This document shows positions 52,789 to 62,295 of a stretch of 64,000 nucleotides of DNA, piece by piece. The stretch is from Nocardioides bizhenqiangii (GTDB lineage Bacteria; Actinomycetota; Actinomycetes; Propionibacteriales; Nocardioidaceae), in contig NZ_CP141059.1 of assembly GCF_034661235.1 (NCBI RefSeq), positions 372,001-436,000 on the forward strand, read 5' to 3'. Every line of letters starts with the position of its first letter. The first letter of the stretch is position 1. The notes beneath the pieces are model-generated. The model saw only the letters and a program-made list of their open reading frames with translations. It searched no databases and was not told where the DNA came from. The position numbers and the translations under genes are program-made.

Positions 52789-52946
52789 GAGCCGGTCGCT
52801 GTGAGCCGACCTTCCCGCGGGGGGCGGCAGGTCTGACCTCGCGGCAAAGGGGCACTGTGCGGTTGGATCGGACCAACTGGGGGTGGTCTTGGCCCAGCGG
52901 ACCGTCCGCACAGCGATATCGGACGTATCGGACATAGGAGGACACG
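52789..52946 (+). promoter_or_regulatory. Upstream region of the Asp-rich peptide operon
   Basis: GTTGG-ATCGGA-CCAAC (52862-52877) is a perfect small dyad. TATCGGAC occurs twice in tandem, 9 bp apart (52917-52924 and 52926-52933), directly before a strong AGGAGG. The first could also help terminate mtlA. No unambiguous promoter hexamers. Confidence 0.4.
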
Positions 52947-53165
52947 ATGACGGACAAGCCTCTCGGCGACGACGACATGACCACAGGGCCGGTAGCCGGC
53001 TCGGGTCCCGGCGTCGGTGACGCCGACGGCACCGACGGTGACGCCACCGACACCACCGACGGCGACACCACCGACAGCGACGGCACCGACGGCGACGCCA
53101 GCGACAGCGACGGCTCCGACAGTGACAGCACCGACGGCGATGCGACCGATGGGGACATCATCTGA
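52947..53165 (+). CDS. Asp-rich pentapeptide-repeat small protein, candidate modified-peptide precursor
   Basis: 72 residues: residues 1-23 are a mixed N-terminal segment (MTDKPLGDDDMTTG...), residues 24-71 are pentapeptides of the form [T/S]-D-[G/S]-D-x: two units, a partial unit, then seven in perfect register (37-71: TDGDT, TDSDG, TDGDA, SDSDG, SDSDS, TDGDA, TDGDI). 23 of 72 residues are Asp; no Cys, and Lys only at position 4. AGGAGG lies 6 nt before the ATG, and the stop abuts the GTG of the JmjC-type oxygenase gene with zero spacing. Leader-plus-repeated-core layout next to a likely Asp/Asn/His hydroxylase suggests a ribosomally made, modified peptide. It could alternatively be a disordered calcium-binding or stress protein. 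Confidence 0.75.
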   Translation: MTDKPLGDDDMTTGPVAGSGPGVGDADGTDGDATDTTDGDTTDSDGTDGDASDSDGSDSDSTDGDATDGDII

Positions 53166-54293
53166 GTGTCCGCTCTCGGCCTGTTGACCGGTGACGCCCA
53201 GACCTTCCTGACGAAGGTCTGGGCGTCGCGCGTCCACCTCCACCGGGCCGATCCGGACGAGCTGGTCGGCCTGCTCTCGCTGCAGGACGCCGACCGGCTG
53301 CTGACGTCCTCCGCGATCCGCACGCCCTCGATCCGGCTGGCCAAGGACGGCGCGATCGTGCCGGAGTCGGCGTACACCCGCGGGGCCACGGTGACCGGTC
53401 GGCCGCTCACCGGGCTCGTCGACGCCCGCAAGGCGCTCGCGTTGTTCGACGACGGCGCCACCGTGGTCTTTCAAGGCGTGCACCGCTACTGGCCCCCGCT
53501 CGCCGAGCTGGTCGCCGAGCTCGAGCTCGAGCTCGGGCACCCGTGCCAGGTCAACGCCTACCTGACGCCACCGGGGTCGCAGGGCTTCGCCGTGCACTCC
53601 GACTCCCACGACGTCTTCGTGTTCCAGACCGCCGGCTCCAAGCAGTGGGAGGTCCACGGCGAGGACGGCGCCGAGGAGGTGCTGCTCGAGCCCGGGCTCT
53701 CGATGTACCTGCCCACCGGTACGCCGCACGCGGCGCGGGCGCAGGAGAGCGTCTCCCTGCACGTGACCCTCGGCGTCAACCAGCTCACGTGGCGCGGTCT
53801 CGTCGAGCGCACCGTGGCGGAAGTGGTCGCGGGCGTCCCCGCCGAGCACCTCCCTGCAGGCTACCTCGACGACCCCGCCCTGCTGGCCGGGCCGCTGGCC
53901 GAGCGGCTGGAGGCCCTCGCCGACGACGTACGACGCATCGATGCCGACTCGGCCGTCGAGGCCGAGATCCGTCGCTTCCTCACGTCCCGACCCTCCCGGC
54001 TCCCGGGTGGGGTCACCGATGTCCTGGCGCTGCGTGCCGGCATCGACGACGACACCCGGCTCCGCCGCCGTCCCGGCCATCCCTGCGTGCTCCTCGAGGA
54101 CGGCGAACACCTCGTGGTCCTGCTCGGCGACCGGTCGCTGACGGTGCCGGCGTGGATCCGGCCCGCCCTCGAGGAGATCCGGGCCCGCCCGTCGTTCACC
54201 GTCGGTGACCTCGCCGGCCACCTCGACGCCCAGAGCCGGAAGGTGCTCTGCCGGCGCCTGGTCCGGGAGGGGCTGCTCGAGGCGGTGTCCTGA
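53166..54293 (+). CDS. JmjC/cupin-type Fe(II)/2-oxoglutarate oxygenase with C-terminal winged-helix-like domain
   Basis: 375 residues, similar in design to bacterial ribosomal oxygenases (YcfD/RoxA type). Iron triad H144, D146 (FAVHSDSHDVFVFQ) and H188 (YLPTGTPHAA); the GSKQW lysine (K159) is the likely 2-oxoglutarate contact. The C-terminal about 85 residues (CVLLEDGEHLVVLLGDRS, FTVGDLAGHLD, LVREGLLEAVS) look like a winged helix, as in RoxA, and also like a PqqD-type RiPP recognition element. Family enzymes hydroxylate side chains on folded or ribosomal substrates. GTG start directly after the peptide stop, so translation is coupled. The adjacent peptide is the obvious candidate substrate. 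Confidence 0.85.
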   Translation: MSALGLLTGDAQTFLTKVWASRVHLHRADPDELVGLLSLQDADRLLTSSAIRTPSIRLAKDGAIVPESAYTRGATVTGRPLTGLVDARKALALFDDGATVVFQGVHRYWPPLAELVAELELELGHPCQVNAYLTPPGSQGFAVHSDSHDVFVFQTAGSKQWEVHGEDGAEEVLLEPGLSMYLPTGTPHAARAQESVSLHVTLGVNQLTWRGLVERTVAEVVAGVPAEHLPAGYLDDPALLAGPLAERLEALADDVRRIDADSAVEAEIRRFLTSRPSRLPGGVTDVLALRAGIDDDTRLRRRPGHPCVLLEDGEHLVVLLGDRSLTVPAWIRPALEEIRARPSFTVGDLAGHLDAQSRKVLCRRLVREGLLEAVS

Positions 54294-54298
54294 CCACG

Positions 54299-55213
54299 TT
54301 GGAGACCGCCGCCGCGAAGCGTTTCTCGTGCGCCGCCGCCAGCGTGCTGCGCGACGAGCCGGTGGCCGGCACCGCCACACACGTCCGCACCTGGATGCTG
54401 CTCGAGCACTCGGGCCCCTGGGGCGACGACGCGCTCCTCGACGCCCGCCTCCCGGACGGCCTCGGCGCGTCCCTCAAGCAGCAGGCGAAGACCTACCGCG
54501 CCAAGATCCTGCTCGCCCGGCGCGCGCGGGCGAAGAGAGATCCCGAGCGGCTGAACGTGTACGTGGCCGACGCCCATCCCCGTCTCCCGCGGGTCGAGCA
54601 CGGCACCGTCGGGGATCTCCGTGAGGTGCTCGACCTCGACCTCAGCTCGTTCCGCGAGGGGGGCTCGGCCGGGCTGGAGCCCTACGACGGCGCCCTCTTC
54701 TGCGTCTGCACCAACGGTCGTCACGACGCCTGCTGCGCGGAGTTCGGCCGGCCCGTCGCGATGGCGCTCGACGACGCGCACCCCGAGGAGACCTGGGAGG
54801 TCTCGCACATCGGCGGCGACCGCTTCGCGGGGAACCTGGTCGTGCTGCCGGAAGGCCTCTACTACGGGCGTCTCGACCCTCAGCGCGCGATTGGCGTCGC
54901 GGGTGCACACGTCGCCGGCGAGCTGGACCTCGACCACCTGCGCGGCCGGTCGTCCTACCCGATGCCGGTCCAGGCCGCCGAGCACCATCTGCGGCGCCGG
55001 GTCGGAGCCACCCGGATCGTCGACGTCGAGCTGGTCCGACACACGGTCGACGGCGACGTCAACGCGGCCACCTTCGTCGTGGGAGGGGCGACCTACGCCG
55101 TACGCGTCCGGACCGTCCTCGACCCGGCGAGCGCCACGAGGCTGACGTGCAAGGCCCACCGTGACAACCCCATCCCGCGACACGAGCTGTTGTCGGTCGA
55201 GCGGACGTCGTGA
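54299..55213 (+). CDS. Sucrase/ferredoxin-like family protein (thioredoxin-fold 2Fe-2S)
   Basis: 304 residues. FCVCTNGRHDACCAEFG with C135, C137, C145 and C146, plus VSHIGGDRFAGNLVVLPEGLYYGR, match the sucraseferredoxin-like family (thioredoxin-like 2Fe-2S proteins); an extra Cys (C11) lies in RFSCAAAS. TTG start 5 bp after the oxygenase stop; GGAG-like bases overlap that stop. Might supply electrons to keep the oxygenase iron reduced, act on the peptide, or be unrelated. Family members are otherwise poorly characterised. Confidence 0.85.
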   Translation: METAAAKRFSCAAASVLRDEPVAGTATHVRTWMLLEHSGPWGDDALLDARLPDGLGASLKQQAKTYRAKILLARRARAKRDPERLNVYVADAHPRLPRVEHGTVGDLREVLDLDLSSFREGGSAGLEPYDGALFCVCTNGRHDACCAEFGRPVAMALDDAHPEETWEVSHIGGDRFAGNLVVLPEGLYYGRLDPQRAIGVAGAHVAGELDLDHLRGRSSYPMPVQAAEHHLRRRVGATRIVDVELVRHTVDGDVNAATFVVGGATYAVRVRTVLDPASATRLTCKAHRDNPIPRHELLSVERTS

Positions 55214-55888: not shown

Positions 55889-56032
55889 GTCGAGTAGCCC
55901 GAGCGCCCTGGCCCGAGGGCATATCGAGGCGCCCGCAGCCAAGACCCGACCGTCCCTGCCGTCGGCGGGCACGTCACCAGGTCTCGATACGCGCGTCGCC
56001 GGTTCGTTCCTCACCCGCGGCGCTACTCGACC
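55889..56032. repeat. Palindromic dispersed repeat, GTCGAGTAG/CTACTCGAC family
   Basis: Starts GTCGAGTAGCCCGAGCGCC and ends CTACTCGACC, with inner GGCATATCGAGGCGCCCGC and CAGGTCTCGATACGCGC. Same order as the element at 15.9 kb, about 144 bp. Its right end carries the TAG stop of the ABC ATPase on the minus strand (KVE-stop from AAGGTCGAGTAG). Confidence 0.75.
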
Positions 56033-57144
56033 TTCGCGCCGGATCGGCGCCCGTCCTCGTTCCTCGGACGGGCGGCCGCGCGCTCGAACGCGACGACCTC
56101 GCCGACGACCGCGACGCGGACCCGCTCACCAGGTGCCGGGACCGAGGTGGCCGGGGTACGGGCCGAGAGCTCCTCACCCGAGTCGAGACGCACCCGCACG
56201 GTGGCGTCATGGCCGTAGAAGCTGATGTCGACGACCTCGGCCGGCGCACCGTCCGTCGCGTCCGTGCCGGCCGCGTCGTCGGGCCGGATCTGGATCTGCT
56301 CCGCGCGGACGGCGAGCCGCACCGGTCCGGGGCGGGTTGCTGCCCGGAGGCGGAGGACGCCCAGCGCGCAGTCGGCGTCGGTGCCGTGCGCGACCAGGCC
56401 GTCGAGGAGCGAGGCGTGGCCGAGGAAAGCGGCCACCCGAGGGTCGGCCGGGGTGAGGTAGACCGTCGCGGGGGTCCCGACCTGCAGGAAGCCGCCGTCC
56501 ATCATCACGGCCACCTGGTCGGCGAGCGAGAGCGCCTCGCCCTGGTCGTGGGTCACGAGGACGGCGGCGGCGCCGGCGGTCCGCAGCGCGCGGGCGACGG
56601 CCCGTCCGGTGTCCTCGCGCAGCGCCGCGTCCAGCGAGGAGAACGGCTCGTCGAGGAGTACGACGCGCGGCCGCGGCGCCAGCGCCCGGGCCAGCGCGAC
56701 GCGTTGCTGCTGCCCGCCGGACAGCTCGTGCGGGTAGCGGCTCGCCAGGCTCGTCGGCAGCTCGACCAGCTCCAGCATCTCCGAGACCAGGTCGGCACCC
56801 CGTCGCTCCGACCGTGAGAGCCCGAACGCCACGTTGCCCGCCACGCTGAGGTGCGGGAAGAGCGCGCCGTCCTGGGGCACGTAGCCGAGGCCGCGGAGGC
56901 GGGCGGGGACCGGACGGGGCCCGCCGACGACCGGGGTGCCCGCCACGACCACCGAGCCCGCGGTGGGCGTCACGAACCCGGCGACCGCGCGCAGCAGCGT
57001 GGTCTTGCCGCACCCCGACGGCCCGAGGATCGCGGTGATGCCGTCGGCGACCACCAGGTCGAGGTCACGGAGCACGGGGGTGCCGCCGTAGCCGGCCGCG
57101 AGCCCGTGGACCTCCAGGGCGGCGGTCAGTTCCTTGGAGATCAC
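56023..57144 (-). CDS. fbpC: Iron(III) ABC transporter ATP-binding protein
   Basis: 373 residues. Walker A GPSGCGKTT (near 40), LSGGQQQRVALARAL, Walker B VVLLDEPFSSLD, H-loop VTHDQGEA, then TOBE-type domains to the C-terminus. Energises the two-domain permease encoded upstream (GTGA overlap). Last gene of the iron operon. Its final residues and TAG stop come from a dispersed repeat, so the native C-terminus may have been altered. Confidence 0.9.
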   Translation of the reverse strand: MISKELTAALEVHGLAAGYGGTPVLRDLDLVVADGITAILGPSGCGKTTLLRAVAGFVTPTAGSVVVAGTPVVGGPRPVPARLRGLGYVPQDGALFPHLSVAGNVAFGLSRSERRGADLVSEMLELVELPTSLASRYPHELSGGQQQRVALARALAPRPRVVLLDEPFSSLDAALREDTGRAVARALRTAGAAAVLVTHDQGEALSLADQVAVMMDGGFLQVGTPATVYLTPADPRVAAFLGHASLLDGLVAHGTDADCALGVLRLRAATRPGPVRLAVRAEQIQIRPDDAAGTDATDGAPAEVVDISFYGHDATVRVRLDSGEELSARTPATSVPAPGERVRVAVVGEVVAFERAAARPRNEDGRRSGAKVE

Positions 57145-58688
57145 GACGTGCTCCCGAGGCTCAGCCGGCCCAGCAGCCAGGTGGACGGGATGGACAGCAC
57201 CACCAGCGCCAGGCCGTAGGGAGCCGCGGCGCCGTACGCGATCGAGGACGCATCGGACCAGAAGCGGGTCGCGAGGGTGTCGGTGCCGGTGGGGGCCAGC
57301 AGCAGGGTCGCGGTGAGCTCGGTCGCCACCGCGAGCGCGACCAGGGCCGTGGCAGCGGTCAGGCCGGGCAGGACCAGCGGCAGCGTCACCCGTCGGGCAA
57401 CCGACGGCCCGGTGCAACCGAGGTTGCGCGCGACGTCCTCGAGCCCGGGCGGCACCAGCTCGAACGTCGACCGCACGCTGACGACCGCCCGCGGCAGGAA
57501 CAGGATCGTGTAGCCGATCAGGAGCACGACCAGAGTCTGGTACAGCGACGGCACCACCCGGATGGAGACGGTCACGAGCGCCAGCGCGATGACGATCCCC
57601 GGCATCGCGCTGGCGGTGTAGACGCTGCGCTCGATCGCCGTCGTCAACAGCCCGCGGTGCCGGACCGCCAGCCAGACGACCGGTACGGCGACGGCGGTCG
57701 CCATCAGGCCGCCACCGAGTGCCAGGCCGAGGGTGGTCCAGATCGCGCCGGTCAGCTCGCCGACGTCGACGGAGCTCGAGGTGCCCCGGACCAGCCAGCG
57801 CACCAGGGCCACGATCGGCACCGCCAGCGCCCACAGGGCGAGGGCGGCCAGCGCGCCGACGACGGGCAACCGGAGTCGTCCGAGCCGGATCCGGTGCGGC
57901 ACGCCGCTCGCTCCGGAGCCGACCCGTGCGCGGCGGCGACGGCCCCGCAGCAGCAGCTCCAGACCCAGCAGCAGCAGGCAGAAGGTGACCAGGACCAGCG
58001 CGAGCAGCGTGGCCTCCGGCCCGTTGAAGACGGTGGCGTACTGCTGGAGGATCGCGGTCGTCAGGGTCGGGTAGTTGAGCAGCTGGAGGGCGCCGTACTC
58101 CGCCAGCAGGTGGAGGCCGACCAGCAGCGCACCGCCCAGGACCGCCGGGCTGACGGCGGGGAGCGTCACCCGGGTGAAGACGCTCCAGCCGCTCCGGCCG
58201 AGCGATGTGGCGACCTCTTCGACGGACGGGTCGAGCCGGCGCAGGGCGGCGACCGTCGGCAGGTAGACCAACGGGTAGTACGACAGTGTCACGACCATCA
58301 CGGCGCCCGGGAACGACTGCACGGCGTGGGTCGTCGACACCCATCCGTAGCCGTTGACGAACGCCGGTACGGCGAGCGGGGCGCACATCAGGCCGTGCCA
58401 CCAACCCCGGCCCGGCACGTCGGTCCGCTCGACGACCCAGGCACCGGCGACGCCGATGAAGGTGCTGGCCAGGACCCCGGCGACGAGCAGGCGCACCGTG
58501 TTCCAGAGCAGCTCGCCGATCCGTGGCCGCCACAGGAAGTCAGTGGCCTCGCGGGGGCCGAGCTCGGCGGTGGTCCAGAGCACGTAGCCGAGCGGCACCA
58601 GGGTCAGGGCGGCGACCGCGAGACCCACCGCGAGCAGCAACGGTGAGGCGCCTCCGGCCAGCTGCCGCGGGCGTCTCGTCTCCCGCAC
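57141..58688 (-). CDS. fbpB: Iron(III) ABC transporter permease (fused two-domain)
   Basis: 515 residues, about twelve helices in two homologous halves. EAA-type loops: PSVEEVATSLGRSGWSVFTRV (near 205) and PPGLEDVARNLGCTGPSVARR (near 425). This is the FbpB/SfuB form in which both permease halves are on one chain. Start uncertain: GTG 58688, or CTG 58712 overlapping the fbpA stop with GGAGG upstream. Operon with fbpA and fbpC. Confidence 0.9.
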   Translation of the reverse strand: MRETRRPRQLAGGASPLLLAVGLAVAALTLVPLGYVLWTTAELGPREATDFLWRPRIGELLWNTVRLLVAGVLASTFIGVAGAWVVERTDVPGRGWWHGLMCAPLAVPAFVNGYGWVSTTHAVQSFPGAVMVVTLSYYPLVYLPTVAALRRLDPSVEEVATSLGRSGWSVFTRVTLPAVSPAVLGGALLVGLHLLAEYGALQLLNYPTLTTAILQQYATVFNGPEATLLALVLVTFCLLLLGLELLLRGRRRRARVGSGASGVPHRIRLGRLRLPVVGALAALALWALAVPIVALVRWLVRGTSSSVDVGELTGAIWTTLGLALGGGLMATAVAVPVVWLAVRHRGLLTTAIERSVYTASAMPGIVIALALVTVSIRVVPSLYQTLVVLLIGYTILFLPRAVVSVRSTFELVPPGLEDVARNLGCTGPSVARRVTLPLVLPGLTAATALVALAVATELTATLLLAPTGTDTLATRFWSDASSIAYGAAAPYGLALVVLSIPSTWLLGRLSLGSTS

Positions 58689-58708
58689 GGGTGCGGTGAG
58701 GGTGCCGC

Positions 58709-59716
58709 TCAGAGGAAGCCGACCTCCGTCATCAGGTCGACGACGGCCTCGGAGTCGAGGTCGGACACGTTGACCACCGGGGGCTCGAGCTCGGCGAACG
58801 GCTTGACGCCCTTCTCCAACGTGACTGCAGGGTTGAGGGGGTACTCCAGGGCATAGCTGTCGGCGAGGGTCTGCTGACCCTCCTCGCCGACGAGGAACTC
58901 CATGAACTCCCGGGCCTCGTCCTTCATGTCGCTCGACTCGAGGATGCCCGCGCCGGACACGCTCAGGAAGGCGCCGGGGTCCTGGTCGGTGAAGTAGTAC
59001 TGCTCGCTGTTGTCGCTGAGGTCGCCGCCCTCGACCCGGTCGCGCTCCCAGTAGTAGTGGTAGACGATGCCGACCTCTGACTCGCCGGCGTCGACCGCCT
59101 CCAGCACGACGTTGTTGCCGTCGTAGACGGTGCCGTTCTCCTCGATGCCCTCCAGCCAGGCGCGGGTGGCGTCCTCGCCCTCGAGCTCGAGGATCGCCGC
59201 GACGATCGCCTGGAAGTCGGCGCCCGTCGGCGAGAAGGAGATCCGGCCGGCCCACTCCGGGTCGGCGAGGTCGAGGATCGACCCGGGGAGCTCGGAGGGG
59301 TCGACCAGGTCGGTGTTGTAGACGAGCACGGTCGACCGCGCCACGAACCCGGTCCACAGCCCGCTGCGCGGGCGGTACTGCTCCGGGATCACCTCGAGGA
59401 TCTCGGCGGGCAGCTCCTCGAACAGGCCGGCCTGCTCGACCTGCGACATCGCCGGGGAGTTCTCGGTGAGGAACACGTCCGCGTCCGATGCGTCGCCCTC
59501 CTGGACCAGCTGGTTGGACAGCTCGAGGTCCTTGCCGTGACGCAGCTCGACCTCGATCCCGGACGCCTCCTCGAACGCGGGTGCGATCTCGTCGAGCAGC
59601 TGCTCGTGCTGGGCGTTGTAGATCACCAGCTTCGGCTCGTCCTCGCCGCAGGCGGCGAGGAGCGGGAGGGCGAGGGACAGTGCGGCCAGGCTGACGGCGG
59701 CACGGACGTGGATCAT
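58709..59716 (-). CDS. fbpA: Iron(III) ABC transporter substrate-binding lipoprotein
   Basis: 335 residues. Lipobox LAAC (cleavage before C23). LVIYNAQHEQLLDEIAPAFEE at the mature N-terminus and the tyrosine-rich ligand region VGIVYHYYWERDR (near 228) and EQYYFTDQDPG match class II ferric-binding proteins, where paired Tyr bind Fe3+. AAGGAAA upstream; its ATG overlaps the stop of the ligase-acyltransferase gene (ATGA), so all four genes form one operon under the iron box. Confidence 0.9.
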   Translation of the reverse strand: MIHVRAAVSLAALSLALPLLAACGEDEPKLVIYNAQHEQLLDEIAPAFEEASGIEVELRHGKDLELSNQLVQEGDASDADVFLTENSPAMSQVEQAGLFEELPAEILEVIPEQYRPRSGLWTGFVARSTVLVYNTDLVDPSELPGSILDLADPEWAGRISFSPTGADFQAIVAAILELEGEDATRAWLEGIEENGTVYDGNNVVLEAVDAGESEVGIVYHYYWERDRVEGGDLSDNSEQYYFTDQDPGAFLSVSGAGILESSDMKDEAREFMEFLVGEEGQQTLADSYALEYPLNPAVTLEKGVKPFAELEPPVVNVSDLDSEAVVDLMTEVGFL

Positions 59717-62295
59717 CGGGTTTCCTTGCTGGGGGTGTCGAGCTGTGGGTGGGAAGCGCCGAGGCCGTGCCAGTGGCGGCGGCCCAGGACACGCCCTCGG
59801 TCCGAGACGTGGTCGACGAGCCGCCACACGGCGATGCCGACCAGGAGTGAGGCGAGCAGCCCGGCGACGGGCAGCCGGTGCTCGAAGTGGGGATAGACCT
59901 GCCAGTGGGTCAGGTAGACGTAGAGGGAGGCGCCCGCCACCTGGCCGACCACGCCGATGAGGGCCCGCGGGAAAGGCACGTACGGCAGCCAGACCAGCGC
60001 CAGCAGGCCGAGCGCGATCGTCGCCTCGCGGACCGGGTCGTCGCAGAAACCGACCAGGCCGGCGACCAGCAGCGCCGAGAGCAGCAGTCGGTGGCCCGCG
60101 TGACGTGCCCGGGTGGCGGCCCAGCCGCCCGCGAACAGCCAGGCCACGAACAGCGACGAGTGGATGAGGTCCCCGTCGTACCCGCTCGCTGTCGCCCAGA
60201 ACCGCGGGACCAGGCCGGCCACGACGAGCCCGACGGCGAACCAGTACGGCGACCGCCGCTCCCACGCCGCGACCCGGGCGACGGTCGTGAGCGCGCCGGC
60301 GCCGACCAGCAGGTAGACGAGCACCTCGATGAACCAGAAGTGCCACTCGGGCTCGTGCCAGGTGCGGCGGCCGATCGCGTCGTTGAGGAGCAGGACGTTG
60401 CGCCAGCCGTACTGGCCGCTGATCAGCAGGACCGCCGCGACCCAGAGCGCGGTGGGGACGGCGATGCGGGCGATCGAGCGGGTGAGGTTGCGCCGGCGCT
60501 CACTGCGCTCGGCGCCCGCCAGATGGAAGCGCGCGAAGTTCGCGCCGGCGACGGCCAGGAGCACGTGGGCGCCACCGGCGAGCACGAACAGGTTGGTGTG
60601 GCTGCCGACGATCATCACGATCGCCGCCGCGCGCAGCAGGATCCCGGTGTCGAGCCGCACCCAGCGCGAACGGCGGGCGCCGGCCGCCGACGCGGCGAGG
60701 TCGCCGATCGTCCGGTCCGGCCAGTCCGACGGCAGGCGTCCGAGTCGACTCTCCAGACGCAGCGAGAGCTCGACGTAGGACAGTGAGTCGCCGCCGAGAC
60801 CCGTGAACGTGTCGTCCGCGGTGACCCGGTGCCGGCCGAGCACGGCGGCGTACACCGCCGTCAGCGCGTCGACCGGCGACAACGCGCGGACGTCGGCACG
60901 CGGCGCCTCGAGCCGGGACACCGCGGCCTGGTCGACCTTGCCGTTGGGCAGTCGCGGCACCGCAGCGACGGGTACGACGGCGACGGCGTGCTCGGGCAGG
61001 CCGGTCGCGGCGACGGCTGTCGCGGCGGCCTCGTCGATCGCGAACCGGTCGGCCTCGCCCGCAAGGGCGACCACGAGCCGGGTCGCGTCGGCGGACTCGG
61101 CGCAGGCGACCTCGTGGTCGTCGAGGGTGAGCAGGTTCTCCACTCGGTCGAGGTCGATCCGCTTCCCGAAGAGCTTGGCGAATCGCGAGCTGCGACCGAC
61201 GACCTCGAACAACCCCGCGTCGTTCTGCCGGGCCAGGTCGCCGGTGCGCAGCTCGGTGAGCTCCGCGCCGCGGGCCAGGTCGGCGGTGCCGTGGGCGTAA
61301 CCCATCATCACGTTCGGGCCCGTGTAGACCAGCTCGCCGACGCCGGCGGCGTGCCCGACCGCACCGTCGACGGGCTCGAGGTGCAGCGCGCCACCGGGGA
61401 TCGCGACGCCGATCGCGCCGGGGTGGGCATCGGTCAGGTCCGGGGGCAGGTAGGCCATCCGGGCGGTCGCCTCGGTCTGGCCGTACATGACGATCAGGTC
61501 CCAGCCCTCGCGCCGACCGCGCTCGGCGACGGCGGCGACCCGGTCAGGAGCGAGCCGGCCACCGGCCTGGGTGACCTGCCGCAGGGTCGGCAGTGCCGGC
61601 CAGCCGGCGGTGTCGAGCAGGTCGAAGGTGAACGGCACGCCCGCGAACGACGTCACCCCGGTCGCCCGCGCCAGGTCCCAGAGCGCCGACTCGGCGACGG
61701 AGAGGTCGGTGAGCACGAGCGAGGCGCCGACCGCGAGGTGGCTGTGCAGCACCGAGAGGCCGTAGCAGTAGTCGAGGGGGAGCGTGGTGATCGCCCGGTC
61801 GTCCGCGGTCAGGCCGAGGTAGGACGCGATCGCTCCGGCGTTGCTCTCGATGTTGCTCCGGGACAGGCGGACCAGCTTGGGCGAGCCGGTGGATCCGGAG
61901 GTGCTGAGCAGCAGCCGCAGGTCGGGGTGAAGGACCGGGTCCGGTCGGCCGGTCGCCGTGAAGCCGCCGTCGGCCCAGGTGGTGCTCGCGCCGTAAGCCC
62001 GGGCGAGCACCTCGTCGTGGGACAGGAGCACGGCGTGGCCCCCTGCGAGCGCGGCCAGGTAGGCGACGACGAACTCGATCGTCGGCGCCGGGACCAGGCC
62101 GACCAGCCGCTGGGCGGACCCGAGCCGGGCCCGCGCCCGGGCGACCCGGTCCGCGAGGTCGTCGTACGACACCACCTCGTGGCCGGCGACCAACGCGGGC
62201 CGTCCGCCGTGCTGCGCGAGGTCCGCCGCGAACCCGACGCCCGTGCGGGGCCGGGTGGCGCGATCGGGCGCGCTCGTCGGCAGCGGGGGCGTCAC
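59713..62295 (-). CDS. Fused AMP-ligase / carrier protein / acyltransferase-3 membrane protein
   Basis: 860 residues, three parts. (1) Adenylation domain, residues about 20-460: P-loop STSGSTGSPK (131-140), A5 YGQTEATAR (271), RTGDLARQ (350), A10 K453 in LPNGKVDQ. (2) Acyl/peptidyl carrier domain, about 470-540, with phosphopantetheine site S504 in GGDSLSYVEL. (3) Acyltransferase-3 family membrane domain, about 545-850, ten or so helices. The architecture implies activation of an acid, loading on the built-in carrier and transfer to an acceptor at the membrane. GTG 62295 is 6 nt after a TATATT box inside an iron box. First gene of the operon with fbpABC. Product unknown; needs a phosphopantetheinyl transferase encoded elsewhere. 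Confidence 0.88.
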   Translation of the reverse strand: MTPPLPTSAPDRATRPRTGVGFAADLAQHGGRPALVAGHEVVSYDDLADRVARARARLGSAQRLVGLVPAPTIEFVVAYLAALAGGHAVLLSHDEVLARAYGASTTWADGGFTATGRPDPVLHPDLRLLLSTSGSTGSPKLVRLSRSNIESNAGAIASYLGLTADDRAITTLPLDYCYGLSVLHSHLAVGASLVLTDLSVAESALWDLARATGVTSFAGVPFTFDLLDTAGWPALPTLRQVTQAGGRLAPDRVAAVAERGRREGWDLIVMYGQTEATARMAYLPPDLTDAHPGAIGVAIPGGALHLEPVDGAVGHAAGVGELVYTGPNVMMGYAHGTADLARGAELTELRTGDLARQNDAGLFEVVGRSSRFAKLFGKRIDLDRVENLLTLDDHEVACAESADATRLVVALAGEADRFAIDEAAATAVAATGLPEHAVAVVPVAAVPRLPNGKVDQAAVSRLEAPRADVRALSPVDALTAVYAAVLGRHRVTADDTFTGLGGDSLSYVELSLRLESRLGRLPSDWPDRTIGDLAASAAGARRSRWVRLDTGILLRAAAIVMIVGSHTNLFVLAGGAHVLLAVAGANFARFHLAGAERSERRRNLTRSIARIAVPTALWVAAVLLISGQYGWRNVLLLNDAIGRRTWHEPEWHFWFIEVLVYLLVGAGALTTVARVAAWERRSPYWFAVGLVVAGLVPRFWATASGYDGDLIHSSLFVAWLFAGGWAATRARHAGHRLLLSALLVAGLVGFCDDPVREATIALGLLALVWLPYVPFPRALIGVVGQVAGASLYVYLTHWQVYPHFEHRLPVAGLLASLLVGIAVWRLVDHVSDRGRVLGRRHWHGLGASHPQLDTPSKETR

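Follow-up and report, generated by a model that had tools for sequence, protein, structure and literature searches.

A conserved actinobacterial gene unit encoding an Asp-rich repeat peptide, a JmjC_2 oxygenase and a Suc_Fer-like protein is a candidate RiPP-like peptide-oxidation system

There are several described systems with which an oxygenase encoded next to a short peptide can be compared. The JmjC protein BipG has been reported to hydroxylate ornithine in the biosynthesis of a ribosomally synthesized and post-translationally modified peptide (RiPP; PMC12707348), and FIH can hydroxylate aspartyl residues, e.g., on AnkyrinR (PMC4543633). According to the 2025 update of RRE-Finder (PMC12710340), fish and algae possess PF08007 proteins with folds resembling RiPP recognition elements (RREs), and their closest bacterial homologues occur in RiPP-like contexts. 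The family PF06999 includes Aim32, reported as a bis-histidinyl [2Fe-2S] protein with the motif CX8CXnHX3H (PMC8482512). Representatives of both Pfam families are encoded side by side, directly downstream of an Asp-rich repeat peptide, in the genome of Nocardioides bizhenqiangii (contig NZ_CP141059.1, positions 372,001 to 436,000; the whole stretch of 64,000 nucleotides that was analyzed is referred to as the window, and all coordinates are those of the window). An initial annotation had interpreted these three genes as a possible modified-peptide system, which is partly supported by the comparative analysis of the unit.

The oxygenase of this unit has the same JmjC_2 fold as NO66, MINA53, and YcfD (PF08007), with 18–25% identity over the aligned residues, but, unlike these proteins, it is co-encoded with an Asp-repeat peptide and a Suc_Fer-like protein. 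Like the biphenomycin (BipG/BpmG) and PbsQ pathways, in which a 2-oxoglutarate oxygenase acts on a ribosomal precursor peptide (PMC12707348, PMC12257519), the unit combines a potential precursor with an oxygenase of this type; whereas the clusters described in these reports contain several tailoring enzymes, a protease, and a transporter and target ornithine, the present unit is small and its peptide has a repetitive Asp core. No published description of the unit was found in a search that included the repeat strings and left subscription journals mostly outside its scope; the nearest mention is the sentence in PMC12710340, which by itself describes neither precursor nor partner nor family and may concern either this branch of JmjC_2 proteins or a related one.

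The three adjacent open reading frames (ORFs) are arranged head to tail on the forward strand. The 72-aa peptide, a candidate precursor identified by ORF calling, by homologous ORFs upstream of related oxygenases, and by the pattern of codon differences, is encoded at 52,947–53,165 (stop codon included), and an AGGAGG motif read directly from the sequence (52,936–52,941, forward strand), which probably serves as its Shine-Dalgarno site, lies 5 nt ahead of the ATG. The gene of the Fe(II)/2-oxoglutarate-type oxygenase (53,166–54,293; GTG start, 375 aa) follows without any gap, and the Suc_Fer-like gene (54,299–55,213; TTG start, 304 aa) follows after another 5 nt, so that the ORF coordinates agree with the tight coupling noted in the initial annotation. 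The genome, a single contig of 4.55 Mb, yielded one PF08007 gene and one PF06999 gene, and no convincing second copy of the peptide was found in it.

Relatives of the oxygenase were sought in genomes of the same family (198), order (245), class (394), and phylum (296). The flanking regions were read in 71 of the 104 matching family genomes, in 60 further class-level genomes (of 128 matching at 1e-20), in 19 of the 39 phylum-level genomes (20 places), and at 20 places identified by searching the order and the family. Ten loci came from named genomes, nine of Nocardioides and one metagenome-assembled genome of Aeromicrobium. Scores refer to a hidden Markov model (HMM) built from 23 oxygenases (set A1), all of which stem from loci already showing an Asp-rich ORF upstream; part of the class-level loci and all phylum-level loci were chosen by HMM score alone. 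After merging of loci with identical oxygenase DNA, 125 distinct loci with a score of at least 310 remained. An upstream ORF was accepted as a peptide if it ended between −330 and +150 nt from the oxygenase start and contained a 40-aa stretch with at least six Asp and at most two residues of K, R, F, W, Y, C, L, or I (shorter ORFs were judged by a scaled rule); among the 491 ORFs of at least 28 aa in the 64-kb window, only four pass this test, including the peptide itself.

By this measure, the peptide is present in 123 of 124 loci with scores of at least 310 and enough upstream sequence (76/76 in the score bin 450–900, 32/33 in 370–450, and 15/15 in 310–370), and the locus that fails (L136) nevertheless has a short Asp-rich ORF. 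A Suc_Fer-like gene is located downstream in 115 of 123 loci (75/75, 30/34, and 10/14 in the same bins). Below this range, the association disappears: at scores of 200–310, the peptide was detected in 1/8 and Suc_Fer in 2/7 loci, with the sole peptide-positive locus (L175) encoding a type B oxygenase (see below) that is matched only in part, and neither was found at any of the 24 remote JmjC_2 loci with scores of 90–200. In other classes of the phylum, 18 of 20 loci pass the peptide test, L185 only doubtfully, as its contig stops 131 nt upstream. In the remaining two (L181 and L190), visual inspection shows the leader together with a DADGTD core. A Suc_Fer gene is present in 17 of the 20. At the level of whole genomes within the family, PF06999 occurs in 103 of 104 genomes with a JmjC_2 match, which include at least one (G195) that has only a remote JmjC_2 protein, vs. 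30 of 94 genomes without such a match. Judging from these sequence comparisons, the peptide, the JmjC_2 oxygenase and, usually, the Suc_Fer-like protein form a conserved unit in many different actinobacteria, and the expectation that the peptide would directly precede homologues of the oxygenase is borne out.

The peptide begins with MTDKPLGDDDMTT and contains 23 Asp and not a single Glu. Its leader carries the motif LGDDDMTT (residues 6–13; 52,962–52,985, forward strand), and its Asp-repeat core (residues 25–72; 53,019–53,162, forward strand) comprises seven consecutive [TS]D[GS]D-x pentads. Both the Asp count and the seven in-register pentads had been noted in the initial annotation; four or more pentads in a row occurred in none of 20,000 shuffles of residues 25–72. 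The peptide has no family match in Pfam or NCBIfam. In 93 of 125 peptides, vs. 4 of 125 after shuffling, the leader carries an L-[SGN]-D-[DE]-[DE]-[MI]-x-T-type motif, a slightly different pattern occurs in 15 of the 20 loci of other classes, and the leader is common to peptides whose cores diverge. Cores of type A are TDGDATDTTDGD-like, whereas those of type B, which were found only within the class of N. bizhenqiangii, are EGPADGGAEGTPGVHDGGADGGA-like; two loci (L043 and L070) have intermediate cores. In the top score bin (76 peptides, including at least one of type B), the cores contain 31% Asp (9–43 Asp per peptide), whereas those in the bins between 310 and 450, most of which are of type B, contain 17%. 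Asp is common to the cores of both types, which are rich in Asp-Gly. Two type B peptides (L098 and L145) are nearly plain (ADGG)n, with stretches of 60 and 69 residues that consist only of Ala, Asp, and Gly.

The differences between related peptide genes fall mostly on the third codon position (1149/1229/3177 at positions 1/2/3), with a ratio of nonsynonymous to synonymous differences (pN/pS) of 0.28 across 144 pairs. The pairs were selected by oxygenase identity (80–98.5%) and share lineages, so the ratio indicates a direction and does not represent a test statistic. It nonetheless argues that the peptide frame is under purifying selection, as the initial annotation had anticipated, and together with the conservation it led us to reject a chance low-complexity ORF. 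A fusion of peptide and oxygenase by read-through of the TGA codon was also rejected, because many loci have different frames or spacers, and membership among adhesin-type repeats found no backing beyond weak, low-complexity SdrC-type matches of one relative, far below the cut-off. In an AlphaFold2 model of peptide and oxygenase read through as one chain, the mean confidence (predicted local distance difference test, pLDDT) of the leader is 80 for residues 1–10 and 67 for residues 11–20, with a strand at residues 12–15, whereas residues 18–72 remain below 50, which indicates a disordered core. The unit shows the features that characterize RiPP precursors, i.e., an encoded precursor, a conserved leader, a variable core, and a candidate modifying enzyme alongside. 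We refer to the unit as RiPP-like and do not classify it as a RiPP, because a modification of the core is presumed from comparative data.

The oxygenase matches JmjC_2 (PF08007) with an E value of 7.9e-18. H144, D146, and H188 are invariant in all 23 aligned oxygenases and align with the HxD...H residues of NO66, which agrees with the intact iron site recognized in the initial annotation. With its JmjC fold, the HxD...H triad, and a C-terminal winged helix, the protein has all the attributes of the ribosomal-oxygenase (NO66/MINA/YcfD) fold. The C-terminal domain (residues 283–375; 54,012–54,290, forward strand), which is proposed to bind the leader, resembles PqqD/RRE domains, as had been suspected, but the winged helices of ribosomal oxygenases score higher. 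It is the usual winged helix of ribosomal-oxygenase-type JmjC_2 proteins and not a separately acquired RRE; only the RRE-like character of the earlier assignment as a recognition element stands.

The Suc_Fer-like protein matches PF06999, a family of thioredoxin-like ferredoxins, with an E value of 1e-18; a comparison of its sequence with solved structures gave no match. The initial annotation had described a four-Cys Fe-S protein, of which the family assignment holds but not the count: C11, C137, C145, C146, and C284, together with H170, are conserved at 100% (to two decimals) in 133 relatives and the window protein, and D174 is conserved at 99%. The protein shares PF06999 membership, the CX8C motif, and the first His with Apd1 and Aim32 (PMC8482512). 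It differs from them in having Asp in place of the second cluster His, i.e., CX8C...HX3D instead of the bis-histidinyl CX8CXnHX3H, and in the additional conserved Cys residues C11, C145, and C284. Among the 132 copies with the motif located just downstream of an oxygenase, this position is occupied by Asp in 130, by Cys in two, and by His in none, whereas PF06999 copies elsewhere have His in all nine cases and in all 16 with the motif among 20 other fetched copies. When every copy in the retrieved loci was counted with a cruder motif, without removal of duplicates, the totals were D 153, H 13, R 3, and C 2; the R cases are out-of-frame chance matches, and the H cases were read as other PF06999 copies. 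This distribution indicates that the linked Suc_Fer proteins form a subfamily of their own, dedicated to the unit, in which a predicted cluster ligand is altered; such a natural His-to-Asp change at a putative [2Fe-2S] ligand would be noteworthy in its own right. Eight genomes (G067, G093, G154, G164, G172, G180, G188, and G190) have a second PF06999 gene within ~2 kb of the oxygenase, and the two second copies that were read, in G164 (L242) and G188 (L243), are of the ordinary HX3H type.

A dedicated system of peptide oxidation following RiPP-like logic is the best explanation for these findings, with a probability of about 0.62. That a dedicated modified-peptide system exists is well supported, because the peptide is conserved beside the oxygenase, its frame appears to be under purifying selection, and the C-terminus of the oxygenase is RRE-like. 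Comparative sequence data show that a peptide consisting of an acidic LxDDDMxT-type leader and a repetitive Asp core is co-encoded with the oxygenase and usually also with Suc_Fer. The leader would dock on the winged-helix/RRE-like domain, which fits the fold and the ordered leader in the model, and would thread the disordered core into the active site of the JmjC domain, where the oxygenase would hydroxylate core Asp residues, most likely at C-beta and on many repeats per chain. JmjC enzymes offer precedents both for Asp as a target (FIH) and for the hydroxylation of a RiPP peptide (BipG). In the two nearly plain (ADGG)n peptides, Asp is the only plausible site of hydroxylation, because their cores consist almost entirely of Ala, Asp, and Gly. 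With less confidence, the Suc_Fer protein, carrying the HX3D variant of the predicted [2Fe-2S] site, may keep the oxygenase iron reduced or, alternatively, may perform a further redox step. The product, speculatively, would be an acidic beta-hydroxyaspartyl repeat peptide that binds metals and probably stays inside the cell. We infer both the chemistry of Asp hydroxylation and the metal binding of the product.

The oxygenase shares its entire fold, including the winged helix, with ribosomal oxygenases; no other PF08007 protein was found in the genome, and relatives of the enzyme are publicly annotated as "cupin", "NO66", or "L16 Arg81 hydroxylase". All this would be compatible with a ribosomal protein being hydroxylated in the manner of YcfD or NO66, with the peptide serving as regulator, inhibitor, or solubility tail. 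Ribosomal proteins, however, are universal, whereas the JmjC_2 relatives are patchily distributed (104 of 198 family genomes). Moreover, the peptide accompanies the oxygenase across a large sequence divergence, its Asp core, with its many repeats, resembles a substrate with multiple target sites, and other JmjC_2 branches have different upstream peptides with similar D-S-D-G-T-D motifs, so that a ribosomal-protein substrate is less likely and this explanation as a whole rather improbable. Still harder to reconcile with the data is an unmodified peptide that acts as an acidic metal buffer or chaperone and supplies both the oxygenase and the Fe-S-type protein with iron. Although the Asp-rich, disordered repeat (31% Asp in the top score bin) and the fact that both partners belong to families of iron proteins speak for such a role, cores with 17% Asp, as in the bins between 310 and 450, would be weak chelators if unmodified, and a conserved leader alongside an RRE-like domain better fits substrate recognition; we consider it very unlikely.

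The peptide might also be modified by another chemistry, such as desaturation, oxidative decarboxylation, epimerization, or oxidation of the Asp or Gly backbone, and Suc_Fer might be directly involved. This possibility, which is rather unlikely, draws on the Asp-Gly-rich cores, two of which are almost wholly composed of A, D, and G, on the Suc_Fer variant dedicated to the unit, and on the fact that simple 2-oxoglutarate hydroxylases need no partner of the Suc_Fer type. Against it, no other tailoring gene is conserved nearby when ORFs of at least 110 aa are compared within ~4 kb on each side of ten loci (the window and nine others). In addition, the ribosomal-oxygenase-type JmjC enzymes described in PMC4543633 are hydroxylases.

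Several observations weigh against a dedicated peptide-oxidation system or complicate it. Suc_Fer does not adjoin the oxygenase in 8 of 123 loci and in 3 of the 20 loci of other classes. The peptides of L105 and L143 are atypical, although they pass the peptide test, and the cores of L182 and L198 are of another kind. L151 groups with type A oxygenases, but neither peptide nor Suc_Fer was seen there. The oxygenase tree gives good support to types A and B as two groups within an open fork and is compatible with a single origin of both as well as with separate ones; the label "linked" requires at least three changes on this tree, partly since L151 and L175 are counted as remote. Finally, the same ten loci show no conserved protease or exporter nearby, a weakness already recognized in the initial annotation; such genes may be located elsewhere in the genome. 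L105 and L143 have type B oxygenases preceded by long, non-repetitive acidic ORFs and lack Suc_Fer; they are possibly drifting or re-purposed systems.

The neighborhood comparison also delimits the unit. Only the oxygenase, Suc_Fer, and frames overlapping them recur in 9–10 of the ten loci, as does the peptide, and a larger gene cluster was rejected, with a neighboring RibD_C gene in 3/10 and an ABC transporter in 4/10 loci. In the window, the ABC transporter lies downstream of the unit on the reverse strand (56,023–60,346), and its substrate-binding and ATPase components best match the 2-aminoethylphosphonate type of NCBIfam, below the cut-off. It is probably unrelated to the unit, because related genes are located near only four of the ten compared loci.

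Short peptides also precede the genes of other JmjC_2 branches, where they end in TSRDITAGGDSDGTDSSSDFI (or a close variant) or SDSDGSDG at 8 of 31 remote loci. At L157, L160, and L162–L166 (L162, L163, L164, L165, and L166), a highly conserved peptide of ~35–38 aa and of the EVEDLAEVTSRDITAGGDSDGTDSSSDFI type is encoded upstream of a remote JmjC_2 gene. Without Suc_Fer and with a DSDGTD-like tail, the combination of a EVEDLAEVTSRDITAGGDSDGTDSSSDFI-type peptide and a JmjC_2 protein is a candidate for a second JmjC-peptide pair. The short ORFs upstream of the remote JmjC_2 genes in L172 and L174 contain a stretch of the DDLILAVE/DDDLVVAVE type, with that of L174 ending in SDSDGSDG, and perhaps represent a third type of precursor. 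The presence of similar short peptides upstream suggests that further JmjC_2 branches of Actinomycetota may be peptide oxygenases.

A much broader reading is tentative and, on balance, somewhat doubtful: leader-guided JmjC enzymes throughout the phylum might produce poly-beta-hydroxyaspartyl chains from disordered Asp-Gly repeats, with a dedicated His-to-Asp [2Fe-2S] redox partner, and the chains might remain intracellular, where they would buffer iron or calcium or serve as a read-out of oxygen, 2-oxoglutarate, or iron. If true, this would constitute a post-translational polymer system and not a secreted natural product.

If the unit is a peptide-oxidation system, it would represent a large, unrecognized peptide-modifying family in Actinomycetota, with related branches carrying different peptides, and a number of bacterial proteins now annotated as ribosomal oxygenases may turn out to be peptide oxygenases. 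The system would also hint at the relationship between the recognition elements of RiPPs and the winged helix found in ribosomal oxygenases. In addition, it would be a natural source of Asp repeats hydroxylated at multiple sites and would provide a ferredoxin-like partner that is dedicated to the system and has an altered cluster ligand.

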